Origin: Dysidea avara
Taxonomy: Eukaryota > Porifera > Demospongiae > Dictyoceratida > Dysideidae
NCBI RefSeq assembly: GCF_963678975.1
Contig: NC_089276.1
Span: 1,364,001-1,428,000, forward strand
DNA length: 64,000 nt
Direction of reading: 5' to 3'
The notes beneath the pieces were generated by a model. It did no database searches and had not been told where the DNA came from. It saw only the letters and a program-made list of their open reading frames with translations. Positions 5,210-48,416 of the stretch are shown one piece after another (positions within the stretch are counted from its first letter, which is position 1; each line of letters starts with the position of its first letter). Position numbers and translations under genes: made by a program.

Positions 5210-6139
5210 TTACTGTGGCTGGCATAAGCCAACCCATACACCATCTGTAACTTTGTCCTTGTTATTTAATCCTCCAATTACAACTATTCTGTTGCTAGGT
5301 AGACCAACCACAGCTGGAGCTCTTCTTTCAAATGGCATTTGACCAATGACATCCCATCTGTCACTGATCTTGTTGAACATGTGAATGTCACTAGTACTGG
5401 TGGACACACCGCTATCTTCTAACTTTGCTCCTCCCATCACCAGCACTTGTCTTCCTTGCATGCTGACAGGAGCTGAACGAAGCCACAGAAAATCCTGGTG
5501 AGAAATCCACTTCAACTGGCAACTGAACAAGGTGTCCAGTGAAGCAGTAAATACTGCTGGAGAGGCTTTACCATCTTGATCAATTCCTCCTAACAGGTAG
5601 AGTACATTGTCAGCAATCACTGACCGTAACCCATACTGTGGTAGTGGTAGTTGATCAGTAGTGTACCACTGCTTGTTGATACTGTCAAACAGTTCGGTGG
5701 AAGGAATTATTTCATAACATTTGTTCCCTTCAGTTAGACCTCCAACTATGATTAGAGTTCCTTGGTGACCAACAGCTGAGGCTTTAAATCTTGGCTTAGT
5801 CATCTTGGTGCAGTACAGTTTTAACTTATAGTTTTCTAGTAGAAATATCTTCTTGGTCACTTTAAGGCCACTTGTTTGCCCTCCAGCAATAACCAACCGG
5901 TTGTTGAGAGTAGTCAAGGCACACCAACAGTGAGAAAGGTCAATTGAAGCACCCCACATATCTTTTTCTGGGTTGTATACTTCTATTTTAAAAGATGGAT
6001 CTCCTTTTTGTCGGTTAATACCTCCTCCAACATAGATGTTGCCTTCATGAAACACAGCGGTGTGGTATGCTTGATTCTCTGGTGCTGGGGTACCCTCTCG
6101 CCACTTGATACTCACTGGTCCACTGAACACATCCGGTAC
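5210..6139 (-). CDS. Kelch-propeller exon (terminal) of kinase-kelch gene 1
   Basis: This exon encodes about 309 residues ending at a stop at 5210. Six kelch blades are visible from their double-glycine strands in order: YVGGG, VIAGG, IIVGG, YLLGG, VMGG and VVIGG, each followed by the spaced Y/W residues of a blade. It starts with VPDVFSGPVSIKW, matching IPDSFSGPVNIKW at the start of the second-gene exon at 46490-47383. The exon boundary is set by an AG acceptor at 6140-6141. The frame upstream of it runs into a CA repeat and is not coding. Kelch propellers bind partner proteins. By the paralogue, this one should follow a kinase domain. The only kinase exon upstream on the same strand is 18446-19471, and its donor phase (0) matches. 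Confidence 0.88.
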   Translation of the reverse strand, partial: VPDVFSGPVSIKWREGTPAPENQAYHTAVFHEGNIYVGGGINRQKGDPSFKIEVYNPEKDMWGASIDLSHCWCALTTLNNRLVIAGGQTSGLKVTKKIFLLENYKLKLYCTKMTKPRFKASAVGHQGTLIIVGGLTEGNKCYEIIPSTELFDSINKQWYTTDQLPLPQYGLRSVIADNVLYLLGGIDQDGKASPAVFTASLDTLFSCQLKWISHQDFLWLRSAPVSMQGRQVLVMGGAKLEDSGVSTSTSDIHMFNKISDRWDVIGQMPFERRAPAVVGLPSNRIVVIGGLNNKDKVTDGVWVGLCQPQ

Positions 6140-6269
6140 CTTTAAATAGTCAAATAATAGTATTGTGAATATAATTATTATGCTTACTACAAAAGGGTAG
6201 AATCCACAATCATGTTTTGCTGTATGCATTAGCATAGTACAAAACATTGATATGTATAGATACACATGT

Positions 6270-6271
<2 letters not shown>

Positions 6272-6356
<85 letters not shown>

Positions 6357-6366
6357 CACACACACA
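6272..6366. repeat. (CA)n microsatellite
   Basis: About 47 CA units, nearly uninterrupted (one CG near 6349). It lies in the inferred intron about 130 bp from the kelch-exon acceptor. Long CV or TH frames through it are artefacts. Confidence 0.97.
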
Positions 6367-7191
6367 AAATTTTAGTCCAGAAGATTGGTCCAGCCAGAGA
6401 CCATTTTGGTCAACTACAGTTGGTCCACTAGACATTGTATCAGTTTTGTTTACCATTGCAAATGTATGCACAGCTCAGCTTGGCTAACTTGTGACTGCTT
6501 AGCTGACTGCCAGACACCATCTTGGAATGCTGTATTATATAAGTGTACAACAGTAAATTTTGATGAAAGAAAAAATTTGAGAAATCAGTAAAGTTCATCA
6601 AACATTCATTATACAAGTTTAAGCCATTGCGGTTTTAAAATAGTCTGTGCTTTTGAGCAGTAATAATCAAACCTCAAAGTTATGCTTCACATCAGATGCT
6701 GTTTTGGTAGACTGTACCGATTTTTTTCTGACTAGTAAATAGTACAGTCAAAAATGGCTATTCCGTGACCACTTTTCGGCTAACATGTTTTGATGGTTGA
6801 TTTCACTTCTTGGGGTCATTTTATTGACAATTTAGCTCCCAGGTCCCTCCCAAAAGTCCTGGAATTTTTTGCTATGGCGCAAAATTTAATATTGCTGCTA
6901 GTGCAATCTAAAATCAGGGTATGCTGCATACAATAGTGTGCAAAGACACTGTTTAGGATAAATAAACCACAAGGATTCCAATTCTGGAATCAGTTTCATG
7001 CTATGACCTTTATTAGATCTAATAATCAATAATAATTTCAATTGGGAAGAGCGAAAAAAGCATAAAATTGAGGTTAAATGCTTCAGTATTTACATGTAGA
7101 AACTTGCATAAGGCAAGATGAAACTTGCACATTTGATGAGGTAGCAGTATGTGCATGATCATGCAGGAATATTGAGATTTAGTATAAATAC

Positions 7192-7556
7192 TAGGGCTGT
7201 GCGATAATGGCGATAACATGATTATCGTGATATCTATGTGATTATCGGGATAAAGATAATGAATTTTCTATTATCAATATAAAAAGATAATAGTAAATCT
7301 CTGTAGACTATTGTATATTAAATGCAGGCAGACGGTACTCTTGTGAATAAGGTCACAACCGGCTGTGGTAATTCTGAAAAGGGCAATTTTTGTAAGAGAT
7401 ACTAACCTTAAACATTTATTATTAGGCACAACTGTGCTTGTAAAAGTACTCAATAGCAATATTTCATTATCGAGATAATATTGTTTATCATGATAAAATG
7501 GATTTTGTTATCGAAACTTATCAAGATATAGGTTTTTCCATTATCGCACAACCCTA
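7192..7556. mobile_element. hAT-like MITE, 365 bp, 8-bp target duplication
   Basis: Terminal inverted repeats are TAGGGCTGTGCGATAATGG and CCATTATCGCACAACCCTA. A perfect 8-bp duplication ATAAATAC lies at 7184-7191 and 7557-7564. The right arm of the surrounding palindrome carries the empty site with one copy. The interior is AT-rich and noncoding. 8-bp duplications and TAGGG-TG-type ends fit the hAT superfamily. Confidence 0.93.
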
Positions 7557-7750
7557 ATAAATACAGAGATTTTTGAGCCACTAGTTCAGTCAGTTTAACT
7601 TGTCAATTTGGCTAAGTCACCTTTTATAATACAAGGATTTGCGGTACTAACTACTATATTCCTAGCCCTCTGATCAATCAAATTTAGTGGCAAAGAAGCA
7701 CCAAAACGCACATTATTTTTTGCAGCTGCATCAAGAAAAGGTATGTGAAC

Positions 7751-8243
7751 CAACGTTGAAACCGGGTCACTACTGCTGACCCGGATGACCCACTGACCCG
7801 GATTTGACCCGGATTAATTAAAGCTGAGATGTGTTTCGGCTAGTATCGAGCGAGCGAGTCTACATTTTGAGCGTTCAATTCATGTTGAGTAAATATTGCA
7901 ACTTCAGCCTAGCTGTAGGTTGAAGACCAAAAAAAAAAAAAAAAAAAAGGTCTTCACCTACTGACAATAGCTACCCCTCACCATAGATACCCTCAATTTC
8001 GTGCTACATACTACACTTACTAACAAATGAGCGTGGCTGAGCGTATGTTGGTAATGCAATAAGTGGGCGTGGCTCACGAAAGAGCTACACGATAGCGTTT
8101 ATAAGTTTCCACGTCGTCAAACGAACAATTTTGTTTCTCACGTGATCCAATTCGGGTCAGACCCGGATAAATTGTAAACTGGGTCAGACCCGGATGACCC
8201 GGAGAAAATGTGACCCGGATGACCCGACCCGGTTTCAACGCTG
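7751..8243. mobile_element. hAT-like nonautonomous element, 493 bp, 8-bp target duplication
   Basis: Ends are CAACGTTGAAACCGGGTC and its partner ending GGTTTCAACGCTG. The 8-bp duplication ATGTGAAC lies at 7743-7750 and 8244-8251, and the empty site is present in the right arm of the palindrome (about 9764-9775). Internally there are repeated 'gacccgga' words, a poly-A stretch flanked by ggttgaagacc, and no open frame. An 84-bp relative lies at 12742-12825, and part of this copy was captured in the satellite at 2317-2486. Confidence 0.92.
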
Positions 8244-8323
8244 ATGTGAACTAAATAATTATTTTTGTATCATAAATATTTAAGCTCATTTTGGCCTTAA
8301 ACATGTAGATTGTAGCAAGAACA

Positions 8324-8960
8324 ATGGAGACAGCTCAAGTACCATGCATGCTTCAGTGTGATGAGCCTTGTAATCTAGCCATGGGTATCATTGATTCCAT
8401 TGAGAGGTGGGAGAGTATCAGGCAAAAGGTTCTCCACTGGAAAGGTCTTGACAAGTTTGGAAGTGTTCATGAATGCGTAGATTGGGTGAAAGGTTCAGTT
8501 GGACACTTTATTCATGATTCCTACAGATTGACACTTAGCAATGCCAGTTGCAGTCTTCATCCATGGCTGAGGTTAGCTCCCAAGACGAAGCTCCAGCTGC
8601 CAAGAGGCTATGATCAAGTTTACGGCTGATTCATGACAAAAAAAAATGTGTTTGGTGTTGCAACCAGAATCAACAAAGCATCCAGAGTCAAAGCTTTTGT
8701 TGATTTCATATGACCATGCATGGGTTGTTTTCAAGAAAGAGCCACACAGTGGCCTTTGAAGATCAGAAAATGTGTGACAGAATCAACTGTCTGATTGATT
8801 CTGCAGCTGATCAGCCCTATATGCTCTTGAAATCAGGTATCATCACAGACGCTGGCTGAAGTATGTTCGGAAATTCCAGAAAAAGAGTGAAGATGATAAG
8901 CTTCCACAAATGCAGAACATTACTATATACTTATCGTGAGGTTCAGACTATATTTAATCT
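8324..8960 (+). pseudogene. Decayed transposon-type ORF, left palindrome arm
   Basis: Reading from METAQVPCMLQCDEPC onward gives peptides such as RWESIRQKVLHWKGLDKFGS and GHFIHDSYRLTLS, followed by frames broken by stops. The right arm keeps the complementary version with some parts intact that are lost here, so the parent protein had a Cys-rich N-terminus, a 'RWESI' segment and a C-terminal region near the palindrome centre (FEENEYSSFLTVL). I do not recognise the family with certainty. Similar cysteine-rich ORFs occur as multicopy transposon genes in invertebrates. It is dead in this form. Confidence 0.55.
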
Positions 8961-9059
8961 TTGAGGAGAATGAGTACTCCTCATTTTTGACAGTACTCAT
9001 GCTCCTCAAAGATTACCTTTCAAGTGTGGTCAAAAACGTAGTCTGAACCTCACCACAAG

Positions 9060-9700
9060 TAATGTTCTGTATTTGCGAAGGCTTATCATCTTCACTCATT
9101 TTTCTGGAATTTCTGAACATACTTCAGCCAGCATTTGTGATGATACCTGATTTCAAGAGCATAGCTGCAGAATCAATCAGACAGTTGATTCTGTCACGCA
9201 TTTTCTGATCTTCAAGGTCCACTGTGTGGCTCTTGAAAGCAGCCCATACACAGTCGTATGAAATCAACAAAAGCTTTGGCCCTGGATGCTTTGCTGATTC
9301 TGGTTGCAACACCAAACACATTTGTTTTTGTCATGAATCAGCCGTAAACTTGATCATAGCCTCTTGGCAGCTGGGGCTTCATCTTGGGAACTAACCTCAG
9401 CTATGGATGAAGACTGCAACTGGCATTTATCCACCTCGCATTTCTTCTGTGTCTTTTGAGCCTGCACTAGCTTCTTGATATTGCTAAGAGTCAATCTGCA
9501 GGAGTCATGAATAAAGTGTCCAACTGGACCTTTCACATGTATTCATGAGCACTTCCAAACTTGTCAAGACTTTTCCAGTGGAGAGCCTTTTGCCTGATAC
9601 TCTCCCACCTCTCAATGGAACCAAATGGCACCCGTGGCTGGATTACAAGGCTCACCACACTGAAGCATGCATGGTACTTCAGCTGTCTCCATTGTTCTTG
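9060..9700 (-). pseudogene. Decayed transposon-type ORF, right palindrome arm
   Basis: This is the mirror copy of 8324-8960. The minus-strand reading includes GPVGHFIHDSCRLTLSNIKK, a Q/K-rich linker and LISYDCVWAAFKSHTVDLED, then INCLIDSA. Frameshifts and stops separate the pieces. Where the two arms differ, each preserves frame in places the other has lost, which implies an old inverted duplication and not a recent conversion. Confidence 0.55.
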
Positions 9701-10375
9701 CTACAATCTAAATGTAAAAGGCCAAAATGAGCTTAAATATTTATGATACCAAAATAATATTTAGTTCACATTACCTTTTCTTAATGCAGCTGCAAAAAAT
9801 AATGTGTGTTTTGGTGTTTCTTTGCCACTAAATTTGATTGATCAGAGGGCTAGGAATATAGCAGTTAGTACTGCAAGTTCTTGTATTATTAAAGGTGAAT
9901 TACCCAAATTGACGACTTAAACTGACTGAACTAGTGGCTCAAAAATCTCTGTATTTATACTACATCTCAATATTCTTGCATGATCATGCACATACTGTTG
10001 TGCAAATTTCATCTTGCAAGTTTTTACATGTATATACTGAAGCATTTTACCTCGATTTTATACTTTTTTCGCTCTTCCAATTGAAACTATTGGGTCTAAT
10101 AAAGGTCATAGCATGAACCTGATTCCAGAATTGGAATCCTTGAGGTTTATTTATCTTAAAAAGTGTCTTTGTGCACTACTGTATGCAGCATACCCCAATT
10201 TTAGATTGCACTAACAGCAATTTAAAATTTCGTGCCATACCAAAAAAATGCTACCGGGACTTTTAGGAGGGACCTGGGAGCTAAATTTTCAATAAATGAC
10301 CCCAAGAAGTGAAATCAACCATCAAAACATGTTAGCTGAAGAGTGGTCACAGAATTGCCATTTTTGACTGTACTA

Positions 10376-11271
10376 TGAAATAGAATAGATGGCTACGCTA
10401 TTCATCTTTTTTTAATCAACCGAGTACCAGTAAATATTATTATGCCTTTTCATATGAATTGCAAATCTCTTATTGTACCAATGTGCTTAATGATTCTGCC
10501 AGCATATTAAGTTACAATTTGTACTGGTATACGTAATTGGCACAAGAAAAGCACCGATTACCCAGATCCACCAATAGCCTGACTAAAACTCAAATGGGAT
10601 AGTGCCAGGCCAAAGAGTGAGGGGTCAGGCCAGCTGTAAGTTGAAGACCAAAAAAAAAAGAAGAAAAAAAGAAGAACAGTCACAACCTGCTGACAATAGC
10701 TGCTCTCCACCAATTATAATCTCTTTATGTATAACTACACATACGTAGCTAAGTTGCTTGCTACACTGCTTCTCTGAATACTGTGATTGCTCTATTAGAG
10801 TATCCAGATCCTGACTGTTCTATTAGAGTCTCACGATCTTCTCTTGCAAACAGTGTCCCATAAAAGTGGGGGGGGGGCATGACTCCTCCCCGTCTCCACC
10901 ACCTATGGATAGTGCTGCTTTCAGTAGTACATTAATTAGTTATATTGTTCTTTGCATGGGAGGATCAAAGTGCTGCCGTACACTGTATTTTTCATACTGT
11001 TTCAATTAGCTACAAAACTGTACTGTATGGGTGATACAGTACAGTTATGTGGATAATTTGACAAGGAATGTTATGAAATCAACCCCAATCAGACAGTACG
11101 ATTCATCATGTGTAAATCACTAAAACTAGCCAAACCAATCTTACCAGTTAGTTCTACAACTAGAAGAGGGACACTTACTGATAGTCTGATCACCAAAAAT
11201 TGAAGCAGTTCAGGCATGTGAGATGAATGCTCCAACCAAGAAGATCAGGACTCAGAGTACAATATATACTG
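10376..11271. repeat. Repeat-derived spacer with dispersed motif pair
   Basis: No gene is seen. About 10627-10700 shares the 'agctgtaagttgaagaccaaaa ... ctgacaatagct' segment with about 7912-7970, and with about 22535-22575 in the opposite direction. Two copies of the dispersed motif (tgctctattagagta near 10787 and gactgttctattagagt near 10812) follow. A G-run lies near 10868. Confidence 0.6.
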
Positions 11272-11416
11272 GTTAAAGCACCGCCGCGAGTACAATAGCA
11301 CGAGGGTGTCGGCAAAAGACTAATTCAGCACTCAGCTTCGCCTCGTGCTGTATTCAGTTCGAGACCATGCCAGAGTACTATTTTTTCATATTGCATGAGC
11401 ATGGCAGTGCTTTAAC
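11272..11416. mobile_element. ~145-bp MITE, copy 1
   Basis: The ends gttaaagcac and gtgctttaac are inverted. The interior carries gcactcagcttcgcctcgtg followed by ctgtatt, shared with the copy at 11653-11800. It is noncoding. The flanks do not give a clean target duplication. Confidence 0.65.
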
Positions 11417-11652
11417 TGGTTTAGTTGTCTTCGTTCAGAGCGTTCATTTAGACTTGAACCACATTGGTTTTCAGCCATCAAGTGTCTATATAGTACAAGT
11501 TTGATCATAAAACAAACATATAGCATCGTTTTGGCTACTTCTGGCAATTTAAAATGTTATGCACATGATCAACAGTTCTGTACTTTCCTTTCAGTGTTGC
11601 ATGGAATTAATATGTTTGACCTTTACCCATGCAAGTGCTTTAAAATTTAACA
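11417..11652. other. Spacer between two MITE copies, no gene seen
   Basis: AT-rich sequence with no convincing frame. It separates two members of the same small element family. Confidence 0.4.
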
Positions 11653-11800
11653 CATAAAGCACTGCATATGCTTGTGTGTACAAAAATACAGCACTCAGGG
11701 GGTCAAATACAACATTTGGCTTCACCTTGTGCTGTATTGGCCTCTCATCACATCCCCTCATGTGGTATTTTCCATACATACATGTGGCGGTGCTTTAACT
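11653..11800. mobile_element. ~148-bp MITE, copy 2
   Basis: It has the same layout as 11272-11416: a degraded left end (cataaagcactgc), a central gcactcag...cttgtgctgtatt and a right end ggcggtgctttaac. The copies have diverged considerably. Confidence 0.6.
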
Positions 11801-12469
11801 ATAACATACAGTAACAGTGATTGGAGTTACTTTAATAGTGAAAGTTGCACTGTAAAACAAAGTCATATAGCCACACAAGTTAAAGTTCCAGCATCCATAA
11901 GACTGGTAAGGCATGAGTGAAACAGAGATGTTGCCAGCATTCATGCAGATTTGAACCCTCTCATGTTTATATGGGAAACTATAGTCAAACTGTTCCATTT
12001 GAAAAACTGAAATGCACATGGCAACACTTTTAACACCTGATTCACATTGCGCTGATTTCTCATCCAGGTACAACACAACACAAAAGGGTGAATAAGCCAT
12101 GCTGACCCTGGGCCAAACGTATGACAAGATGAGGTGGGTTGACCATATTTAGGGACACTAACTCACGATAGTCATTTGCTGGACCTTAATAAGTAATATT
12201 CTACAATGTGACTACAATGATATTAAACCATAGATACTATACTAATTACACGGGATTGGAAGCTCCATTCATGCGCCGGCACTCCTCATTGTATTGGAAA
12301 TAATTACTTTGGCAAGTGTGTCATATACATTTGCTGCATTGCTATGTTCTATTATAAGAAGTTGGAATTTGGCAGCTGTAAGTTTGTCAGCTAGATTTGT
12401 AACTGCTACACTAAACCACTCTTAAATCACAACATGAATACAGTAGTTGTCAGTAGGTTGCTTAGAAGT
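11801..12469. other. No gene seen
   Basis: Short frames on both strands (for example 110 codons at 11795-12127 on minus) lack recognisable motifs and sit in intronic, transposon-rich DNA. I treat them as chance. Confidence 0.45.
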
Positions 12470-13400
12470 TAGTGTTTTTCTAGTACAGGTATATTATTCT
12501 AGTACAGTTCTAGTTCTAGTTCAGTTGTCAGAAATATTTTAAATTAGTATTAGTTCTAGTATTCATTGTTTAAAACAATTTTAGTTAGTATTAGTTCTAG
12601 TATTCCTTGTTAGAAACAATAATAGTTTGTATTCATTTTAGTATTCATGACTGAGTTAGTATTATAGTACCTGCAATTTAGTAAGTATTAGTTATTGCAA
12701 TTTAGTAATGCTTTTACAAAACTTGATCACTAACTATATGTCAGCGTTGAAACCGGGTCGGGTCATCCGGGTCACATTTTCTCCGGGTCATCCGGGTCAG
12801 CAGTAGTGACCCGGTTTCAACATTGCTATATGTGTATTAGAATTATCATCCTATACCATTTTGAGAAGTAGACCCTAATAAAAGATTTTAAGAAAAAAAA
12901 AACATCCTACATGCACCTAAACAGTATACTTCTTGTTTCTATGTAAGAAAACGTCTCTAAGTTTTGTCTGTTATGTGGCTTTGTTTCCCCATTGTCACCT
13001 CTCCACCAGAAGAAAATATTCTTTTCAATGAAGCAGTGGTTGCTAAATGTCACAAGCCACTTGAAAAAGTTGCCTTTGTTGTTACAAAGGTGTACCACAA
13101 AGTGAGGCTTTAATGTGCCAGATAGTCAGCTCATTAAACAGGTTCCTGCTAAATCTCAAACAACAGTTACAGTATATAGTAGTTGCAGTAATAAAGTTTT
13201 AGTTTAGTTCTAGTATTTGTACTATAAATCTATTAATTTTAGTTTAGTTCTTGTTCAAAACTTAAAAACAACACTTTTCTAGTATAGTTCCAGTTTTTAA
13301 AATGGATTGTAATGGAATTATAGTTTAGCCTAGAACTAAAAGGAAAAGGCTGTACTAAAACTACTTTTAGTTCTAGTTCTAGTATACTAGAAAAACACTA
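12470..13400. mobile_element. hAT-like element, 931 bp, 8-bp target duplication
   Basis: Ends are TAGTGTTTTTCTAGTA and TACTAGAAAAACACTA. A perfect duplication TTAGAAGT lies at 12462-12469 and 13401-13408. Both subterminal regions are rich in 'tagttctagt' words. A smaller element (12742-12825) is nested inside. It has no coding capacity. Confidence 0.92.
12742..12825. mobile_element. 84-bp hAT-like MITE, 8-bp target duplication
   Basis: CAGCGTTGAAACCGGGTC opens and GACCCGGTTTCAACATTG closes it. A perfect duplication CTATATGT lies at 12734-12741 and 12826-12833. It belongs to the same family as 7751-8243 but is reduced almost to its ends plus a few 'tccgggtca' units. It is nested in 12470-13400, so it is younger than that element. 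Confidence 0.93.
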
Positions 13401-13819
13401 TTAGAAGTACCCAAAAGATACCTGATTCCGTGCCTGTTTATCACTGAAAAGATATATAGAGAGAGTTCGTGATCAGTTGTACCAACATGTAGTACAAGCC
13501 ATTTGGAATCGTCTCAACTCCAATATAATACCAGTAGGTTTAATTTATGTCTTCAAAGACATTGCAAGGGATACACACAATGGTTTCATTTCATTTGGTT
13601 TCATTGCATTGCCTGAGAACTTTGTACTACAGGACAACTTAGGTAGAAATACTCATTCATATTTCATCCTATACACTTATCTTGTGTTCTTCATAGCCTT
13701 AGCAAAGTAGGCATATAAAAAACCAGAGTTTAAATCTTTTGTAGCCCTCACTTACTGGAATGTAAATCCATGAAACTACAGAATACAGTGCTTAGCCAGA
13801 ATACATGCATTCTATTGAG

Positions 13820-14665
13820 CAGGGGCGGATCTAGGGGATGGGCTTTGGGGCTGAAGCCCCCCCCCCCCTTCACTTATAGGCTTTACTTGATCAATATGCT
13901 GAGGATTATAATGAAATTTTGTTTAAGCATAATTATATAATCACTAATTATACGAATTCTCATAAACCCACCTTATAAACATCTTTTCAATGCATTATTA
14001 GCGGATTTATGCTAAAAGTTATGCAACAAGGGCCCGGATCAGCATTGGAGGTGTACAAGATCGAGATACTCTAATAGAACAGTCACCTAACTACTCTAAT
14101 AGAACATCAGTGTAAGCATAAAAAGTTGGTTCTGTTATGCCAAATCTACCTGTGACTATACATACAATGAAGTGCATTGGTATGTTTAAAAGGCTTCGCC
14201 ATTTCCTTGTGTAGTTATTACTGGTACCGGTATACTTAATTCAGGTACACAATTTCCATTGAAAATGCTCTCAGATTCTATCTCGTATCATTCAAATTTC
14301 AAAATTTTCCAGTTTCAACATTATTATTCTATCATGCACACACAATTGTGAGAGGGTGCATCATGTGCTTGGTTGTCTGAACCTACTCAAACCTTTCCAT
14401 TAGCAAATGCTGCAGAGAACCATATATATCTAAAGGCAGTGTATAAAATATCTACAGTATTCTGACAGGCATAAATATGCATTTTATGTGGAAATTTCTC
14501 CAAATTCCAGTATTTTAGCATCTATTTTTCAAAAATTTCCTGGGGGAGCATGCCCCCAGACCCCCCTAGCTCCAGCATGCTTTTGCATGCTGGAATGCTT
14601 TTGCATGCTGGAGGGTGTGCTTTGTAGACCCCCTAGTTCCAGCATACTTTTGCATCCGCCCCCTG
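13820..14665. mobile_element. DNA transposon with 5-bp target duplication (copy A, 846 bp)
   Basis: It begins CAGGGGCGGATCTAGG and ends in the inverted ATCCGCCCCCTG. TTGAG lies at 13815-13819 and 14666-14670. The same ends and a 5-bp duplication are found at 29321-30524 and 61878-62305. The interior has a C-run, two dispersed motifs (14066 and 14092) and a right subterminal block of gcatgctgga repeats. The block near 14540 (cctgggggagcatgccccca) recurs inverted at about 43535-43570. It is nonautonomous. Confidence 0.88.
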
Positions 14666-14670
14666 TTGAG

Positions 14671-16010
14671 TCTGCGAACAGAGCTTCCAATCCTGCCAAT
14701 GTAGGGATTTTCTCACTGAACTGTTCTGTAATGCTATCATCCATCTCTTGTTTCAGCACTTGGAATTTTTAAGTTAATAATTTTTATTATAGTAGTGCAA
14801 TTATTTAATATCATAAACTAAACCACTTTGTGTGTGCACTCAAAATTTGAGCATATAAACAAGTTCCCACTTTTAAAGATGATACTTAAAACTTGTAAAC
14901 AACAGTTACACACACAATGTTGCTGAGGTGCAGTAATTCCTACCTGTATTTGAGGCATCCTTGTTGCTGGCAGGGTTTGTGTGTATGATCGCTTTATATG
15001 AGACTGAGTATCAGGAGTTAGATCACTAGTTGATTGAACATCCTACACAGAACCACAACATACATTTATTAACTGATGACCACACAATTAAAGAATCACC
15101 AGGTAATTGCTGCTGCCATGAATTCAATAATTTACTTTTCTAACACCCCATTCACATTATCCCATCATGTTTTCAAATTGATTATTTATGTTTAACTCTG
15201 TTCACACTATTGTAGTACACATTAAATGCTTACCATTGAGTGTGACATCCAATTAATATGGACAGGAGGTGGGTGACTTCCCTGATCATCCACTGACTTA
15301 TGGAGCTGAAAAATCATTACATAAGCAGTGACGCATGAAAAATTACTAATCTATTGCACAACGAGTGGGATTGAGATACATATGAATATTGTGAGCTCTT
15401 GGGGAATAGCATAATGTGTAATACCATAGACTCTGGTTATTAGGTAAAATATTACAATTATTTGTGAAATTTACCATGCGCAGGTGTCTTCTAAGAGATT
15501 GTTATTTGTGCCCACCAAGCAATTGTTTACACAGTTAGTTTCACTCGTGGAATAATCCTGAGAGCAGCTACCGTTATTTCAGGAGGTAGTATTTGCTAGA
15601 CACATGCCTGGTAAGGTATCAAGTGTACATGTACTGTGACACTTCTTCTGCTTCTGTTCTACAAAGCATGAGCTTGCAGCAGTAGTGATGTCAACTAGAT
15701 GTGCTTAACAAACAGGTGATATCTACAGCCATCTTAGCAATTAATTTTAATATGAGTAAAATGATTTTAGTCTCCTTTCAGTTTGGCATAAGAATTAGTT
15801 GCTGGATCAGATTTCTACTGTTGCACATTAACTGCTACAAGTGCATAAATACAGGTCACTTTTAAAAGGTGCTTTCTAGTGAATTGACCAACAGGAAGTA
15901 CTATAATTCAATCATATGTAAGTAATCAAATACTATGCACTCTACAGAGAGAAGCCACTGTTAGCAGGTAAAGCACACTACTACTTTGGTCTAGCTTTTG
16001 TGCTGAATTG
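14671..16010. other. Intronic DNA, no gene seen
   Basis: No long frame and no recognisable repeat ends. Confidence 0.4.
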
Positions 16011-16014
16011 TGTC

Positions 16015-16260
16015 GGAGCAGTAAATAATGTCCAAAATACTATAAAACAATAAGAAGTGAATATCCCTACTATGCTATAGAGATTCTACAATCAAAATGC
16101 ACAGTAGGGATATTCACTTCTTATTGTTTTATAGTATTTTGATATTGTGTACTATAATTATACTCTGATCCAGCTTGTTTCAGTACTTTTTATTGCAGCA
16201 CTACATTGTCCCTACTCTAGTTTAAAATTCCTAAGTTTTCTTATATTTGTTTGTGAATGT
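16015..16260. repeat. Partial hairpin element (same family as 36818-37100)
   Basis: Inverted blocks pair around 16090: taaaacaataagaagtgaat with its complement, and gtagggatattcacttctta. The right flank (gcttgtttcagtacttttta ... ccctactctagttt) matches the right arm of the fuller copy at 36818-37100. The left outer arm is missing. Confidence 0.75.
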
Positions 16261-17562
16261 TTTTTGTAAACTCATGATCACTATTTACCTACCACAATTA
16301 TAAATGGTGAGTGTTGGTCACAGTGTCTAAAAACATTCAGTGAAACTATTCTGGCTAGCTAAACTGGTATACCACAAGGTTGCTCATTTTAGTTGACAGT
16401 ATTTTTTGCATATGCTTTGTCAGTGCATATGTAGATACCAGTCTCCAATTCCTGGTGGCAAACTACATTGCTGGAGAACAGCTCGCATCGCTAGTGTCAC
16501 AGTACTGACTTATCATTGACTTTCTCAAGCTGACACGCGAACTGACATGTGTATTCCAATATATGATATTGTGTAACGTGTGACACCCGGTAGGCCTGAG
16601 CCTAATATGCTCAAAATTTTACCTATTATATTCTTTCCAGAATTTCCCAAAAAATTCTCCTATTATTCTTTTTTTATTCTTGTATCTAGCCTATTACTCC
16701 AAAATAATGCCCATTTTAGTAATAATAATGCTCATTTAGTTTCTGTAGCTATAGTCACTTAGTTCTCAAGATGCTGATATAAGAGGTACTTTTGCCAGAA
16801 TTAATTAATAGCTAGCCAAAAATGAAGCATTCCACCTTACACATAATTGTTATAGCCATTACAACAGACTCAAAATGGCTATCAGAATAATTTTCAATCA
16901 TCAGTGTATAAAGCTATAGCTATAACTATATGCTAAGTTCAGTAGATAATGATATCAATATGTTTGTTGAAAGGCTTAAAGAAATACACTGGTATGAGAT
17001 GTACAAGTTTCAGAATTGCAGATAATCATACAGTTAAATCCCTGATGCTGTCTGCAGATTGTAATAACATGAAACAATCTGACTGTTCTATTAGAGTATT
17101 TGAGCATTTTATTAGAGTATATCGATCTTTTAGAGGCTCTTCAACCCCTTTCAGCCAGCTATCTATCATTCTTAGTAGCTTACTTCCTTCTTCTAGGTAG
17201 CTAATCAAGAAGAGGCATGCCCTTTAATTCCAACGATTATTTCCATGGACGTCCGATAATTCTAAAATTATGCCTGTAACTATCCTATTATTCCGGAATT
17301 ATTCTCACGAAATTGATGACCTATTATTCTCAAAATTATGCCGGCATATTAGGCGCAGGCCTAACACCCGGAGATGAAAGCCATCGACTGCTGGTTATGG
17401 TACAAGGATAAAAGGTATAAGACTATAGCGTATGTATTGTATACCTATCATTATAACAAAGGTTTCTTCTTAAGTGAATTCGAAGCATTTCTGTGAAAGA
17501 ATTAGGGCTGTAGCTGTAGCCAGCTTTCCACTGAAAGTGTCAGGCAGGCAGGTAGACAAGCA
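16261..17562. other. Intronic DNA with dispersed motif copies
   Basis: No gene is seen. Motif copies lie at 17081-17099 (gactgttctattagagtat) and about 17106-17120 (a ttttattagagtat variant). The region 17215-17370 is rich in 'tattattc' words. Confidence 0.4.
17081..17120 (+). repeat. Dispersed ~20-bp motif, pair
   Basis: Two copies of (g)actgttctattagagta spaced about 25-30 bp. It is the same short word described across the window in both orientations. Confidence 0.6.
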
Positions 17563-17946
17563 TAGTCTCACGTAGACCAGACCGACTTTGTGTGTGTGTG
17601 TGTGTGTGTGTGTGGGGGGGGGGGGGGGGAGGGAAGTGGTCTGGTACACTTGCAATAAAATTTCTGTGTAACATTCTAGTTTCACTCCAGACATTGTGGT
17701 CCAGACTAGTAGTGTTCCACCAGCTCTATGATGGCTGCTGATTGGCAAAGCCATTCACTACAGAGCAAAATGCTTTATAGTATAATAGTTACAGCACCTA
17801 AAGCATAAGAAGAGAATGGCTTTGCCAATCAACACCCACTGTAGAGCTGGTGGAACGCTACACAGAAATTCTATTGCAAGTGTACCAGTCCACTTTTTCC
17901 TGCCACCAAACAAAATAAAAAAGTCAGTCTGGTCTATGCGAGACTA
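17563..17946. mobile_element. ~384-bp foldback element with 'tagtctc' ends
   Basis: The left arm tagtctcacgtagaccagac pairs with the right arm ending gtctggtctatgcgagacta, and pairing continues through ttccaccagctctatgat / gtagagctggtggaac. A TG-plus-G run (17590-17630) lies in the left arm. The end sequence TAGTCTCGC recurs at 48595. Confidence 0.75.
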
Positions 17947-17984
17947 AGGCAGATAAGCAGTAGAAAACTGATTCCATTGAATAA

Positions 17985-18110
17985 AATTCTGTAGCAACTT
18001 GACAAAAGTGTTTTGGGTCTCTTTTGGGCTTGATTTTACCCGACCAATACTATCATGTTGTTTTGAGAGAAAAGTGAAGCAGACTTTTATATCATGGGCC
18101 ACACCCACAC
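17985..18110 (-). repeat. Degenerate copy of the coding-like repeat seen at 37857
   Basis: Read on the minus strand it gives a peptide resembling F-S-x(5)-YWLGKPKPKQAF-x(2)-TRNAFNQVA at 37857-38081, but with disruptions. It is one of four copies in the window (34488, 35909 and 37857 are the others). Confidence 0.5.
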
Positions 18111-18445
18111 CATAGATATACTAAGCCCAGGTATCTGGGGTTAGTATATCTACGGCTGTTTTGATTTGCTTTAAAGGTAGCTGATTCTACCTATATAACA
18201 TTCATCTCTCATAGAGCTAGTCATACACTGAGCTAGTCATACACTACTTTATTTCAATTCAAAAGTGATGGGCAAATATTTATAGTGAAAACTTTTGTTA
18301 CACTAAAATAACACGCACAGACACAAAAAATTCAAATGGGAAGTGTTAAAGACTAAAAGTTCACTGATTGACTCCATGTACTTTTGCATAAATTGACACA
18401 CAAGATATCTTCATCATGACTATACTACACATCAAGGGTAATTAC

Positions 18446-19471
18446 CTCATTTATTGTTCTAATCTCATGTATTAGAACTTGCTGCTGCTCATTCTCATTT
18501 CTCAGTTGCTCTACTTGATGATATAAAGTGATAATATCTTGTGGACACGAATGTGGAGACTTGTTCATGTAACAATTCTTGCTTGCTTGGATACTTTCAC
18601 AGACAGCTGCTATGGTTGGCCTCGTACTGGGATCATCATCCAGACACTCCTTTACCAGTGGCCTCATTTCTTCAGCCTCTCCTCTCATTGCATCCAGGTA
18701 TTGTTGACGACGCTGAACTTCAGTAAATGCATTATTGATCTTTGTGGTACGGTCATATACCACTTTATCAGATGGATGAGGCCAATTTTGGTTAAATGTG
18801 TGCAGAATTATTCCGCCAAATGAAAATACATCCATGGGAGGCCCGTATTCTGGCTTATCACACAGTACTTCAGGTGGCATGAAATCGGTAGTCCCTGGAG
18901 CTTTAGTCATTGTCTTTTTACTATCAGCCTTTATCACTTTGGCCACTCCGAGATCACTGATCTTCGCTACATGATGTGCCGTCAATAAGATGTTGTTAGG
19001 GGAGAGGTCTCGGTGAACAATGGGAGGATCATGATTGTGAAGGTAACACAGGCCAAGGGAGACACCATGGACAATTGAAAATTTTATATGGACAGGAATC
19101 TTCTCATATTTATCCACCAGTGAGGTCAAGCTATCCGCCATCATCTCCATAACCATTACTGGTAGCCGCATCCTTCCCTGCAAACTTCCTGCCCCTGAGG
19201 GATAATAAACACCTAGGAACTGTATAACGTGTGGATGACGTAAAGCACTGCATTGATGACACTCAGTCATAAACGACTCTACAATTCGCCGCATTTGCAC
19301 TTCGTCAACTCCATCCACCAGAATGGAATGAATCTCTTTAGCTGCACAGATCGTTCCATGATAGTTGACCGCGTACACTCTCCCGTAAGCCCCTCGTCCA
19401 AGTTCCCTGCCACCCTGCAGTGGCGTTACTGCTTTCAACTCAAGATCGTGAAATATGTCACCTGATTCCAT
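18446..19471 (-). CDS. Protein kinase exon (first) of kinase-kelch gene 1
   Basis: About 342 residues. The start is well fixed: an in-frame TAA directly precedes the ATG at 19471. Kinase landmarks by residue: Gly-rich loop GRGAYG 25-30, Lys45 in CAAKEIH, alpha-C Glu70, HRDLSPNN 153-160 with catalytic Asp155, DLG 173-175 where DFG is usual, and GTTDFMPPE 193-201 as activation segment/APE. The domain ends near 295. A Gln/Glu-rich amphipathic helix, probably coiled coil, occupies about 312-342. The overall look is tyrosine-kinase-like (TKL). All catalytic residues are present, so activity is likely. There is no signal peptide or membrane segment, so it should be cytoplasmic. Six codons after the GTAATT donor the frame stops, which supports splicing. 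The downstream kelch exon is inferred to be 5210-6139. Confidence 0.92.
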
Positions 19472-19563: not shown

Positions 19564-20103
19564 TTACAAGAACCTTTTAAGGGGATAGTTAGGGTCCGCA
19601 ACGTGAAAAATGAAGTTGTAAGAAACAAATCCCCGACTATCGTAGTATAGTGCCCCATCACTAATTCCACCCTTGGTTTGGAACTGAGTTCCCTTGTTGG
19701 AGCAACACGCGGATTTTAATATCTCACGTGATAGATCTTTATTCCGTGCGCTCCAAAGAAGACGTCCTGAGCTCCCAGATTCTGAGTGTGATATCAAGTG
19801 TTGTTGGTCTACAAAACCATGCATAGAAGTGAGTAAAACTTTGCCTGTGTTTTCCCCGGAGGCTGATTTTCTGCGAATGGGTCGAGAAATTATACAATGT
19901 GATAGGATTGGCTTCTGTTCTCTTGGCTGGCAGAGCACCTCGAACGAAAAATTTCTTTAATTTAAAATTTCTTTAATTTAATTTAATAAAATTAAATTAA
20001 ATTAAAGAAATTTTTCGTTCGGTAGAGCACCTCGAACGAAAAATTTCTTTAATTTAATTTAATTTTCTTTAATTTAATAAAATTAAATTAAAGAAATTTT
20101 TCG
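19564..20103. repeat. Upstream region of gene 1 with AT hairpins and repeat fragments
   Basis: Frames are open on both strands over 19564-19960 (124 codons minus, 88 codons plus) without recognisable motifs. The plus frame ends in IQCDRIGFCSLGW, which recurs as IQCDRIGFSSLGW in the arms of the palindrome that follows, so it is probably repeat DNA and not an exon. Two hairpins of aacgaaaaatttctttaa and its complement lie at about 19945-20013 and 20034-20104. Confidence 0.5.
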
Positions 20104-20595
20104 TCAGATGTTCTTCTGGATCTTCCCCTGATTTAAAGCTCCTAGAAAGACAGTTTGTAACAGTAGGAAGGAGGCAACCAACCAAAATCATTGAAGATCA
20201 TTGCACTGAAAATTTCATCTCTGCCAGCCAGATGGTTAGAAAGGTCGCAGCTCTTTCAAACTTGGTGTGTAGAATACTTATACAATGTGATAGGATTGGC
20301 TTCTCTTCTCTTGGCTGGTAGAGCACCTCGAACGAAAATTTCTTTAATTTAAAATAATGATTGGCTTCCGAGGTGCTCTACCAGCCAAGAGAAGAGAAGC
20401 CAATCCTATCACATTGTATAAGTATTCTACACACCAAGTTTGAAAGAGCTGCGACCTTTCTAACCATCTGGCTGGCAGAGATGAAATTTTCAGTGCAATG
20501 ATCTTCAATGATTTTGGTTGGTTGCCTCCTTCCTACTGTTACAAACTGTCTTTCTAGGAGCTTTAAATCAGGGGAAGATCCAGAAGAACATCTGA
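20104..20595. repeat. 227-bp perfect inverted repeat with 38-bp spacer
   Basis: Arms 20104-20330 and 20369-20595 are exact reverse complements as far as I can read, with equal length and no indel. Each arm holds an open frame of about 70 codons ending TAG (SPDLKLLERQFVTVGRR ... RIGFSSLGW). The spacer is an AT-rich remnant of the flanking hairpin sequence. Perfect arms imply a very young inverted duplication or ongoing gene conversion. An assembly artefact is possible. Confidence 0.9.
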
Positions 20596-30534: not shown

Positions 30535-32148
30535 ATGTCTTCGCACTTTAAGAAAGAGGTACAAGTCTCGTCCTATTGAACACAATCTGCTCCATATTAC
30601 AACAGCTGAATAAACCCTTCAAAGTAGCATTCAACAAGCTAACGCCAATTTTGAAGCAAAACTGGTGAACAATTTTGCTTTTAGCGATGACTCCAAAATA
30701 TTCCAATATGTGAGAAACATTACCAAATCTGTTTCCATCCCTTCCACAATATTTTATGACAACACTTCTGCCTCTAAAGACTTTGACAAAGCTACTTTAT
30801 CAACAAATACTTCTACTCAGTGTTCTCTCAAAGTACTTATTCCCTTCCTAATTTTGAAAATATGCCCCCAACAAGTGTGTCCCTTGACTCAATTTACATT
30901 TCTGAAGAAGTTCACGACGCATTATCATCTCTGGATCCTCACAAGGCAACCGGTATAAATGGAATCAGTCCACAGCAATTCTAAAACACTGTGCCTCTGT
31001 TCTAGTCAAACCTCTGCACTATTTGTTTTCATATGCTATCCACTACTACTCACTACCTTCTGAATGGCAAATTCACTGTATTACTGCTATCTTTAAATCT
31101 GGTGACAAAAACAGTGCCACCAACTACAGACCTATGTATCTTTGCTTTGTGTCGCATCAAAAGTACTTGAACGAATAATATACAACAAAGTAATAGCATC
31201 CATTTTCAGTGCTATCTCTATGTGTCAATTCGGATTTATGAAAGGCTGTTCTACTTTACAACAACTTCTTATATTTTTAAACAGTATTCATGAACACTGC
31301 AAAACTCAAACAGATGTAATATACTTAGACTTTGCAAAAGCCTTTGACAGAGTTCCCCACAATGAATTACTTTTAAAACTCTGGAGAATCGGTATCACTG
31401 GCGACCTTTGGTGGTGGTTTAGATCTTACCTCAACAACAGACAGCATTGTGTTCGCCTTAATGGTTCACATTCCACCTTCCTTCCAGTCTTATCAGGTGT
31501 GCCTCAAGGGAGTATCCTAGGACCACTTTTATTTCTTATCTACATCAGTGACTTATTTTTATCTGTCTGTTCCTCTAATGCTCTCTCCTTTGCAGATGAC
31601 ACAAAATGTTATAAAATTTTTTTTGAACACCTAGACTCCATACAATTTCAACAAGACCTTGATTCAATTGCTAACTGGTCTAGAGATTGGAACCAATTTA
31701 ACACCAGTAAGTTTATACATCTATTATTTGATACAAAATTCCCCACATCCTATTTCATAGACGACACTATAATCAAAACTAGTAGTACTCACCGTGACCT
31801 CGGTGTCATTTTATCAACCAATTTATCTTGGAAAAATCATTATAACCATACATCAGCTAAAGCCTATAAAACCCTCGGACTATTGAGACGTACCTTCAGC
31901 CACTCAATTGACATTCCAACCAAGAAAACTTTGTATTTAGCATTAGTTAGATCACAACTACTTTACTGTTCTCCTTTATGGTACCCCTACCTTATTTGTG
32001 ACATCTCTACTTTAGAGAGAATCCAACGCTGGGCAACCAAATTTATTCTAAATGACTATGTAACTGATTACAAAACACGTCTTATCAAACTTAACATGCT
32101 ACCACTGATGTACACCTATGATCTTTATGACATACTTATTTATTTATT
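30535..32148 (+). pseudogene. LINE reverse transcriptase (5' and core part of a split copy)
   Basis: An early part in a broken frame (ALSSLDPHKATGINGISPQQF near 30920) leads to the long frame at 31142-32212. RT landmarks in the long frame: DVIYLDFAKAFDRVPHNELL (block A), GVPQGSILGPLLFLIYISDL (block B), SFADDTKCYK (catalytic FADD), HRDLGVILS, and the thumb-like ERIQRWATKFILND. It stops matching at YDILI about 32145, where an antisense LINE is inserted, and resumes at 33303. Frameshifts before 31142 show it is dead. CR1/jockey-type clade by motif pattern. Confidence 0.85.
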
Positions 32149-32149
32149 T

Positions 32150-33302
32150 CATTGCTTTACAGATACACAGCAAAATTACAAGGATGGTAGGTACAATAAT
32201 AAGACAGTATGATTGGAAAGGTGATCTGAAGGACAAATGACAATCAATGCCAGATGCCTATAAAACTAACTACTTATACTTAACTTAATTACCAAAAGCC
32301 TATGAAACTAGTTATTACAATAAATGATAGTTACAAGGGTTGGGGAGCTTAGCACAATTACAACAAGGACATGCGAAATGGAAAGTACATTTATTATTTG
32401 AATTAAAATTACTTAAAAATGTTCCCATAAATAGCTCTTTAACTGTTGCTTAATTGTGTTGAAGGAGAGGGTAAGGTCAATTACTGGCAGAGAATTCCAT
32501 AATCTGAGAAGTCTATAAAAATAAGAATTGGCACATATTGAATTACTTAAAATCTTGTGATGTAGTTTGATATTTGATGATCTGGTATTAGAATTATTGA
32601 AGGTTACATAATTGGAGATGTTAAAACTAGGAGTAGGATACTTTAATGATCTGATGAAAAATAGAATGTCTAGTAATTCAAATGTGTACATTAAGGGTAA
32701 TAGTTTGAGATCCATAAGTCTTTCCTTGTAATCCGAAGTAAAATCGTTTAAAATAAATTTGGTGGCACGTCGCTGAATTCTTTCCAACATCGAAATATCC
32801 TTAATGAGATTGGGCCTCCACAAAGGAGAGCAATACAATAAGGTTGATCTCACTAAGGTTAAATAAAGAGTTCTTTTGGGTTGGATTGATATAGTGTTTT
32901 TGAATGTTCGCCATATCAGACTAATTGATTTATAAGCCTTAGCTGTAATGGCTTCGTAATGGGATTGCCAAGTTAAGTTTGTTGTAAATATGATGCCAAG
33001 ATCTTTGTGTTGAGGTACTTTAGATAGTTCAAAATTATCAAGATTGTAAACAGTGATAGCTGAAGATGATGATGGTAAACACTGTAGGACAACACATTTG
33101 TTAACTTTGAAAGAAAGAAGGTTCTCTGTACTCCACTTATATAATAGGTTCAAGTCATGTTGGAGATGAGTGGAGTCCATATGAGTTCTTATAGGTAGAT
33201 AACACTTGAGGTCATCGGCAAACTTGAATATAGTTGAATGTACTACGACATGAGATAAGTCATTTATATAGATTAAAAATAGTAACGGTCCTAGTATACT
33301 CT
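32150..33302 (-). mobile_element. Antisense 5'-truncated LINE inserted in a related LINE
   Basis: The frame of about 298 codons on minus starts inside block B (SILGPLLFLIYINDL) and runs to a normal C-terminus (LLRLWNSLPVIDLTLSF ... LWEHF), with FADDLKCY as the catalytic motif. Its 3' untranslated part reaches the junction near 32150. The flanking plus-strand LINE reads continuously across it (YDILI | FFIKSIQHP). The 5' truncation in block B is typical of target-primed reverse transcription. Its frame is intact for this length, so it is fairly young. Confidence 0.85.
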
Positions 33303-44189: not shown

Positions 44190-45149
44190 AACATATCAGA
44201 CAAGCTACCAGACTATATGCTACTCACTGAAGTCATGTACTCTGAAGTTGTACCAGTCCCTGTCATTGTACTGTTTGAGGTAGCTTGATATTTCCAGTCA
44301 ACGTGTTTCCTTACACTTTGGATTGATAATATTCTTAAAATGGTATTTTACATCGTGTATACCAATTGTTGTTTTCTGTTTGCCGGTTCATAATTAACCC
44401 TCTTATGTGACCATCTCAGCGAAAAACCTAACTAGTTCGCATAAGCATGCAGTTTTGAGAAAAATGAAATTCGTAAAATAACACATGCTACAAAGAAATA
44501 ATACACAAGTTTTTATCAAGCCACTATTCAGAGGAGGAAGACTCAAATTGATAAAACTATATACACCATCTTATCCATCTGCTCATGGAGAGTTCGAAAA
44601 TCTTTGTTTCGTTTCTGTAGCCTCAATGGTGTGTATGTCACATGAGTTAGTTTTCAATATTGTAGACATCAAAAATCATCACCATTTCTTTGCCTTCGTA
44701 CATATATATGCACAAGTGACTTCAGGGATAAAACTACAGAGGTTGCTTTGCCAAATCATGGTGAACAGTTTATCCTAATCCCTGTAGCTAAACATACACA
44801 GCACATGTATGTAATTTTTGACTTTGGTGCAGCTTGCTATTTTAGTCTGACTAGCCAAAAGTCTGAACAAACAGTTTTTCATGTCAGTGCACACCTATGT
44901 GCTTAAAACAAAGATGTAGATATTCTGGATACTGGTGAAAGAAGCTTTTACCTACTCTAATACAACACACTGGACCAACACACAGATGGACAAATATGTT
45001 GGCAATTTGTCTGCCCTGTCCCAAAAGTGCTATAAGAGTCCCTATTATGTGAGGTAATTCAGTGCCAGTGCTGAAAAACTGATCATAAGAGTTTGTAGAT
45101 GAAGACTTGCATGGAACAGATAGAGCAAAAAGGTGCATCAAAAAGGTCC
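44190..45149. other. No gene assigned
   Basis: Frames of 97 codons (44485-44778, plus) and 85 codons (44884-45141, minus) are open but carry no motif I recognise. Confidence 0.35.
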
Positions 45150-46489: not shown

Positions 46490-47383
46490 CTACTGGAATG
46501 ATACAATCCATACTTTGTTGGTAGATCTTCCACCCTTGATCATTCCACCGATCATTACTAGCCGGGATTCTTCATTACACACAACAGAAGTGAGACCTGT
46601 CCGTACTGGAAGAGTTGCAATCGCCATCCATGTAGCTGTAGAATTGAGGGTGTAAATGTCATTACCGCCTATTGCTAACAAGTATTTGTTATTCAGACCA
46701 GCAGCAACTAGACCACCACATGGAGTATCTACAAGATGTTGCCACTTTACTTGGTGACTAGACAAAGTATCAAGAGGAGCAGCATACACTGCTGTAGAGT
46801 ACTTGTCATCTTTAGTGTTCCCACCTAACACATACACTGTGTCACCTACTATGACTGAGTATGAGGAATAAAGCTTTTGAGGGAGATCATCACATTTGAA
46901 CCACTGGCCAGTAGTAGCATTAAAGAGTTCAGTTGTACTGAATGTGTCCCTACCAACGCTGCCACCAATCACTATCATCTTTGATTGGTGGCTAGTAGCA
47001 GTGAGTCTACATCTTGCTGTAGGCATTTCTGTATATTCTTTCCACTGGCCACTCTCCAGTACAAGTACTTTGTTAGTGACTCTACGACTCGTTCTAATTC
47101 TCCCACCAACAATAACAACTTTACCTGTCAGCACTGTGATGGCAAATAAATAATGTGGAGTGTCAATAGTGTCCCATGTGTTAGTGTCTGGATGATACAT
47201 GTCTAGTGTGTAGGAATTTTGTACTCCACCATCACCATCTCTGGTCCAGCCACCTCCCACATAAATCACTCCATTATATAATACTGCAGTGTGATTGTTC
47301 CTACCCACTGGTGCAGGGGCTCCTTCCTCCCACTTGATGTTCACTGGTCCACTGAACGAGTCAGGTATGGTGGCCTTCACTTT
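46490..47383 (-). CDS. Kelch-propeller exon (second) of kinase-kelch gene 2
   Basis: 297 codons plus stop, beginning KVKATIPDSFSGPVNIKW after an AG acceptor at 47384-47385. Six kelch blades are marked by YVGGG, VIVGG, IVIGG, YVLGG, LAIGG and VMIGG, each with the expected spaced aromatic residues. It joins the kinase exon in phase 0 across a 55-bp intron (47384-47438, GTTTGT...TTTAG). The full protein would be about 623 residues: kinase, short linker, propeller. The propeller presumably selects substrate or partner for the kinase. There is no membrane or secretion signal, so a cytoplasmic protein is expected. Confidence 0.93.
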   Translation of the reverse strand, partial: KVKATIPDSFSGPVNIKWEEGAPAPVGRNNHTAVLYNGVIYVGGGWTRDGDGGVQNSYTLDMYHPDTNTWDTIDTPHYLFAITVLTGKVVIVGGRIRTSRRVTNKVLVLESGQWKEYTEMPTARCRLTATSHQSKMIVIGGSVGRDTFSTTELFNATTGQWFKCDDLPQKLYSSYSVIVGDTVYVLGGNTKDDKYSTAVYAAPLDTLSSHQVKWQHLVDTPCGGLVAAGLNNKYLLAIGGNDIYTLNSTATWMAIATLPVRTGLTSVVCNEESRLVMIGGMIKGGRSTNKVWIVSFQ

Positions 47384-47438
47384 CTAAACAATATCACATA
47401 TTCTATACTAACACATCATAAGCTGTGTACTAACAAAC

Positions 47439-48416
47439 CTGTAATTGTGTTGATTTTTGCTTGATCTCAGCCAACCATGAGATGGGGTCCATACCATCAC
47501 GAGTCGTCTTTTTGCTGTACTCTTCCTTCATCATTTTGATCCTCTCAGACATGTCTGCTGCTGGAGGACGTAATCCTGGATCATCTTCTAAACATGACAT
47601 AACCAATGGCTTCAAATCTGCATCACTTCCAATCATCATGTCTATGTACTCTTGACGTCGTTCTACCTCTGATAACATTAACCGTTTCCTTGTCTTGGGA
47701 TCAATTTGTTTCACAGCTTTCGGAAGTGGCCATTGTCGGCTAGTGATGTGGAGGATCACACCTCCAAAAGAGAACACATCTAATGGTGGTCCATATACTG
47801 GCTTATCATCCAATGCCTCTGGGGACATAAACACACAAGTTCCTGGAGTTTTAGTCATCGTATTGCTTTGATTCATCGTCATTGTCTTTGCCACACCAAG
47901 ATCTGTGATCTTTGCTTCAAGAAGACGATTCACAAGAATGTTATTAGGAGACAAGTCTCGGTGGACAATTGGAGGATTGTGACCATGAAGATACCTCAGT
48001 CCTAGAGACACATCATGTAGTATTGACAGTTTCACCAGTAAGGGAGTATTATCATGTTTATCTACCAGTGATGTTACAGTCTCCTGCATCTTCTCCATCA
48101 CCATAACAGGTAGTACGGACTCGTCACTAGAAGGATAGTAAATTCCTAGGAATTGTACAACGTTAGGATGACGTAGAGTACTCCAGAGGTGACATTCTCG
48201 CAAGAAATCATCTTTTATTTTGAATTGTTCTTCGGCAGTGGGAAGTTCCATCATCCAACGATGAACCTCTTTACTGGCGCATGACTTTCCATCGTATTCT
48301 ACCTCGAAAACTTTCCCATACGACCCTCGACCTAGTTCCACTCCAGTTGGTCTCACCCGAGAACTGGGAATCTTAAGGTGATGTAGCGCTTCAGCTGCTG
48401 CTAGAAACGAAGCCAT
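47439..48416 (-). CDS. Protein kinase exon (first) of kinase-kelch gene 2
   Basis: 326 residues before the donor (the frame alone would stop two codons later). Landmarks: ELGRGSYGKVF loop at 27-37, Lys49, alpha-C Glu74, HRDLSPNNIL 152-161 with Asp154, DLG 172-174, and GTCVFMSPE 192-200. It matches the kinase of gene 1 closely throughout (LGVAK, YGPPxDVFSFGG, ECLxDDP or SCLEDDP). The ATG has a strong context (AAAATGG). The linker after the kinase is shorter than in gene 1. All catalytic residues are kept. The lysine of the usual HRDLKxxN is replaced by serine in both genes, so the substrate class is not predictable from this motif. Confidence 0.94.

Follow-up and report, generated by a model that had tools for sequence, protein, structure and literature searches.

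Among proteins of known structure, the kinase considered here finds its closest sequence matches in CTR1 (2.1e-23) and IRAK4, which we take to be members of the tyrosine kinase-like (TKL) group; these share with it the kinase domain, and we know of no kelch propeller in either. Kelch repeats link the other half of the same gene to the KLHL/KBTBD proteins, which carry BTB domains and, to our knowledge, no kinase. The gene in question, termed gene 1, lies on the minus strand of a 64,000-nucleotide stretch of the genome of the sponge Dysidea avara (NC_089276.1, positions 1,364,001 to 1,428,000; C5:1364001-1428000 in our numbering), which was analysed at its full length and is referred to as the window. 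From its sequence, gene 1 is probably a single mosaic kinase-kelch gene, with its two coding exons joined across a 12.3 kb intron. Exon shuffling through long introns of matching phase is a general concept, to which gene 1 conforms in having a phase-0 junction at a domain border and two halves that appear to differ in ancestry. Within the parts of the literature that were accessible, including those of PMC12909245 and PMC6208332, a search turned up no such kinase-kelch family, a result that falls short of proving its absence.

The exons of gene 1 and the gap between them

The two coding exons and the putative splice signals of gene 1 are as follows:

18446..19471, minus strand: gene 1 exon 1 (coding part), 342 residues, with a kinase domain and a short coiled-coil-like tail ending in RTINE
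18440..18445, minus strand: putative 5' splice site GAG/GTAATT, phase 0, read from the sequence
6140..18445, minus strand: predicted gene 1 intron, 12,306 bp, collinear in blocks with the gap of a tandem copy (copy B, below) and of a length typical for the subfamily
5210..6139, minus strand: gene 1 exon 2, 309 residues and a stop codon, a kelch propeller with the N-terminal start VPDVFSGPVSIKW

The open reading frame (ORF) at 18425-19471 on the minus strand matches the Pfam Pkinase model (5.8e-42) and contains the motifs CAAKEI, HRDLSPNN and DLG, which we take to be the catalytic lysine, the HRD motif and the aspartate of DFG, as would befit an active enzyme. Several Pfam kelch models match the downstream exon above their cut-offs (best 1.4e-23), and its closest PDB sequence matches are various kelch proteins (1.8e-13). 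A sequence-only reading of the window had reported that a second minus-strand gene, gene 2, shares the unusual kinase motifs and the propeller start, and that the exons lie 12.3 kb apart in gene 1 and 55 bp apart in gene 2 with phase-0 junctions; the ORFs, the motifs HRDLSPNN and DLG and the start VPDVFSGPVSIKW were all confirmed, and the two distances measure 12,306 bp and 55 bp. The candidate acceptor of gene 1, TTAAAG/GTACCG at 6140, is in phase 0, and it is the only one in that phase of the four AG dinucleotides that the open frame ahead of the kelch (6409-6140) contains. A better-looking acceptor, TTTTGTAG at 6187, was ruled out on account of its phase 1. When 14 kinase and kelch queries were run against the full window with tblastn, matches with E < 0.01 occurred at gene 1 and gene 2 only, and none inside 6140-18445; a nearer kinase exon and a nearer kelch exon, two of the three observations that the sequence-only reading had named as speaking against a single gene, were thus not found. 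Splicing out of the 12.3 kb intron would join both exons into a protein of about 651 residues (342 + 309), plausibly a signalling kinase with a propeller that binds a partner or ligand.

The setting of this gap becomes apparent from searches of the genome (550.8 Mb in 108 contigs), which contains well over 100 kinase exons of this family. The window kinase (117 matches), the window kelch (128) and a kinase of the long-gap genes on C9 (150) were used as queries and the matches were paired by position, a pair being a kelch that has a kinase on the same strand no more than 31 kb upstream, with no other listed kelch intervening; the resulting counts are lower bounds, given that only the best candidates were scored. 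The pairing drew on all 117 window-kinase matches, 55 of the 150 C9-kinase matches and 108 of the 128 kelch matches. Most of the omitted C9-kinase matches repeat window-kinase matches, and they also include two fragments at C9:8940-9652. The 20 omitted kelch matches are mostly fragments or weak (one at 44% identity or above, 12 at 30-43% and seven below 30%), the sole one in the first class being C11:5833075, a fragment near the listed 5833542. For C9-kinase matches the gap was counted from the end of the matched range and is somewhat over-stated.

Kelch domains at least 44% identical to that of the window were paired in 30 of 40 cases, the window gene and copy B included, with gaps of 2,776-29,097 bp and a median of 12,730 bp. 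At 30-43% identity 46 of 64 were paired, with a median gap of 154 bp; 17 of these 46 gaps exceed 600 bp, the longest being 26,280 bp. A listed kinase lies within 35 kb of 32 of the 40 close kelch domains, and the nearest one is on the same strand in all 32 and directly upstream in 29. Gene 1 has the same layout, with the kinase exon upstream on the same strand and phase-0 ends. On this sequence evidence the long intron is a trait of the subfamily, represented by about 30 pairs. In compact relatives the junction falls by eye at the matching place and in phase 0, for instance AKEQ/QPVDVPDIFS in locus L082, and since both the place and the phase are shared with them, the long gap is most likely a single intron in a position that is old and common to these genes, though it may hold small additional exons. 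In most of the long-gap genes examined (termed C9-type) the kinase exon ends in CAACAG/GT and the kelch exon begins after the acceptor as AG/GAACAACTGG.

An array of such long-gap kinase-kelch genes extends over C9:257354-1545174, where several adjacent kelch exons are separated by about 66-79 kb, suggesting tandem duplication of large units.

Tandem copies and constraint

Besides the window gene, termed copy A, two further copies are present on the same contig, C5. Copy B (C5:1334188-1350182) is 94% identical to the window gene in the kinase and 95% in the kelch, and its gap of 14,025 bp matches the window intron in collinear blocks that differ by 3-6% substitutions; one base is missing a few bases downstream of its donor. 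Copy C is a broken kelch of 83% identity at C5:1302104, with intron pieces that match the window up to position 15188. Between copies A and B the nonsynonymous (dN) and synonymous (dS) divergences are 0.027 and 0.075 for the kinase (ratio 0.36, Fisher p 0.004) and 0.020 and 0.049 for the kelch (ratio 0.40, p 0.04). Against the broken copy C the kelch ratio is 0.27 for A (p 1.4e-5) and 0.50 for B (p 0.016). Going by these substitution patterns, both halves look constrained between the tandem copies.

Affinities of the kinase and kelch halves

The kinase of the window gene is 72-77% identical to the kinases of 28 loci (L003-L030) that are situated mostly on C6, C1 and C8 and are termed C6-type here. 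The tails of these kinases, in those examined, are likewise coiled-coil-like, and end in QQL/GTAAGT or similar. The resemblance does not extend to the kelch, which is visible at 12 of the 28 loci, belongs in all 12 to another kelch type and lies 0.6-3.1 kb downstream (10 within the 1.5-kb flank and two more at 1.4 and 3.1 kb), with an identity to the window kelch of about 24-29% overall and about 24-28% in the six cases compared directly. The C9-type genes show the converse relationship: they agree with gene 1 in domain order, strand, gaps of 3-29 kb, phase-0 ends (in those examined) and a kelch 44-56% identical to that of the window, whereas in their kinases they constitute a separate clade that, in the cases compared, shares about 50% identity with the kinase of the window.

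Kinase trees of 52 rows place copies A and B in a clade with the 28 C6-type rows (support 100/100), and grouping A and B with the 16 C9-type rows is rejected (approximately unbiased, AU, test, p 7.7e-9); the window gene thus lies outside the long-gap subfamily by its kinase. The compact loci L081-L083 join the C6-type and window kinases against the rest (Shimodaira-Hasegawa-like approximate likelihood ratio test, SH-aLRT, 98; 100/98 in a second tree). Comparison of the window kinase with nine of the 28 C6-type loci gives a dN of 0.15-0.18 and a dS of 0.45-0.83. At the DNA level the best match to this clade (L018) stops at 18447, in the last bases of the exon, and the other C6-type matches stop between 18476 and 18552. 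A match of L022 to window positions 19594-19803, upstream of the kinase, was not relied upon; it occurs at one of the 28 loci, where its distance from the kinase is greater by about 1 kb, and may therefore be a dispersed repeat.

The kelch was analysed in trees of 34 rows (10 of them C6-type, from the loci with a kelch inside the 1.5-kb flank), of 24 rows with the C6-type omitted, and of 21 rows with L053, L079 and L080 omitted too. The kelch domains of copies A, B and C fall with the C9-type rows with support of 91/85 in the 24-row tree and 100/98 in the 21-row tree, and the arrangement that the kinase tree would predict, the window kelch with L081-L083, is rejected in both (p 0.0097 and 0.0057, respectively). 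The two halves therefore give supported trees that conflict with each other, and from this conflict it seems that a C6-type gene was the source of the upstream half and a long-gap gene that of the downstream half.

This assignment of the kelch is weakened by several results. The affiliation of the window gene with the C9-type subfamily, to which it corresponds in kelch and in long gap, becomes unsettled once the C6-type kelch rows are added: in the best 34-row tree the window and C9-type kelch domains are not one clade (holding them together gives p 0.15), the AU test does not reject a union of the window and C6-type kelch domains (0.345), and the conflict between the halves is correspondingly weaker; long branches are flagged in this tree, and its bootstrap had not settled. 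Even in the smaller trees, the tests do not reject a window kelch placed just outside the C9-type rows (p 0.128 and 0.155 with 24 rows, 0.208 with 21 rows). The unrejected union with the C6-type kelch, and the very long branch of the latter, leave some room for a history in which gene 1 is one gene and no swap took place in the window lineage, the pairing in the window being ancestral and the C6-type kelch having either evolved fast or been swapped itself. We consider such a history distinctly improbable, given that the L081-L083 kinases join the C6-type and window kinases and yet the union of the window kelch with that of L081-L083 is rejected.

A different challenge to a single mosaic gene comes from the possibility, akin to the split gene with separate fates that the sequence-only reading gave as its alternative, that the window holds two separate genes or fragments, namely a free kinase ending in TINEVITLDV before a stop codon within the former intron, and an orphan kelch that has lost its own kinase. 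The ancestry conflict itself would be compatible with this, and further observations weigh on the same side. The acceptor of gene 1 ends in AAG after a broken pyrimidine tract, most relatives having TAG, and the donor lacks a G at +5; such an acceptor seems weaker than its counterparts in most relatives, and this is the main internal argument against one gene. In copy B a CAG-to-TAG change places a stop codon in the N-lobe of the kinase, and since the kelch of this copy is open, its two halves may have separate fates. No kinase was found upstream of the copy C kelch in the 16 kb covered, to C5:1319500. Further, some of the same-strand agreement is to be expected from tandem arrays that run in one direction. 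Nevertheless, two separate genes are unlikely in our view, since both exons are constrained between copies A and B, dN is low relative to dS against the nine C6-type kinases, the phase-0 ends match, and 28 other pairs have the same-strand layout at a similar distance.

A single mosaic gene, which we favor, could have arisen if a C6-type kinase segment landed either upstream of a second-subfamily gene or within the long intron of such a gene, whose kinase and kelch exons are normally 3-29 kb apart. The phase 0 shared by these long introns would permit splicing of any such kinase exon to the kelch downstream. The mosaic unit would then have been duplicated in tandem, with insertions gained and lost separately in the intron of each copy; both the recombination route and the direction of the swap are conjectural. 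In more general terms, it is possible, if still short of probable, that the phase-0 introns of 3-29 kb provide room for recombination, through which kinase and kelch halves from different subfamilies are re-paired, and that the window gene is a working and duplicated product of such a swap. The underlying mechanisms, growth of introns by transposons and exon shuffling, are already well known. If confirmed by RNA, the family would offer a natural series of about 30 paralogues for how introns at one position become or stay long, and would test whether long introns at domain borders let paralogues exchange kinase and binding halves.

Gene 2 and turnover in the predicted gene 1 intron

Gene 2 (46490-48416) has the same exon order and motif pattern as gene 1:

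47439..48416, minus strand: gene 2 kinase exon (Pfam Pkinase, 1.4e-38)
47384..47438, minus strand: gene 2 intron, 55 bp, read from the sequence
46490..47383, minus strand: gene 2 kelch exon (Pfam kelch models, best 3e-27)

Its identity to gene 1 is 47% in the kinase and 36% in the kelch, and judged by these values it is a distant relative and no recent paralogue. Since the kelch subfamily as a whole shares the long gap, the contrast between the two genes is one between old subfamilies and not between sister paralogues, and the sequence-only reading's natural comparison of intron growth between paralogues is not sustained. Similarity between the start of the gene 1 intron and the gene 2 intron is not significant (reached in 2 of 300 shuffles, in one of 31 comparisons). 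Just downstream of gene 2, at 44902-45105 on the minus strand, five C6-type kelch queries gave weak kelch-like tblastn matches (E 0.04 to 0.66).

The following segments were distinguished in the gene 1 intron; no strand is assigned to them:

6743..10359: imperfect palindromic element of 3.6 kb with long inverted-repeat arms, present in copy B and absent from copy C
7200..7557: nested insertion of about 0.36 kb within the palindrome, carried by the window copy but not by copy B
7755..8240: second nested insertion within the palindrome, about 0.49 kb, likewise carried by the window copy but not by copy B, with the 8-bp flanking repeat ATGTGAAC
15502..17504: segment of 2.0 kb that the window copy has and copy B lacks

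Copy B in turn has an insertion of 2.0 kb that the window copy lacks (L062 4111-6120; C5:1347111-1349120), with perfect terminal inverted repeats of 29 bp and a duplicated TA, slightly less than 40 bp after the donor. The nested transposon-like insertions proposed by the sequence-only reading are thus corroborated, and their restriction to single copies implies that the nesting is real and that the intron is still changing. They would also be expected had a short ancestral intron, like that of gene 2, been inflated in gene 1 alone by nested transposons. That history is nonetheless very improbable, being contradicted by the gap table, in which long gaps run throughout the kelch subfamily, and by the fact that copies A and B share most intron blocks and copy C parts of them. 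The insertions account for turnover of the intron and not for the difference between gene 1 and gene 2. In sum, one gene with a long intron, as the sequence-only reading had proposed, gains support from the 28 other pairs plus copy B, the junction match and the constraint, while inflation relative to gene 2 does not hold up.

Two further features lie outside these genes. A near-perfect inverted repeat is located at 20104-20595, upstream of the gene 1 kinase start, with 236-nt arms that are 98% complementary and a 20-nt spacer. Reverse-transcriptase ORFs (Pfam RVT_1) are present at 31106-32209 and 57682-59305, the second in two overlapping frames.

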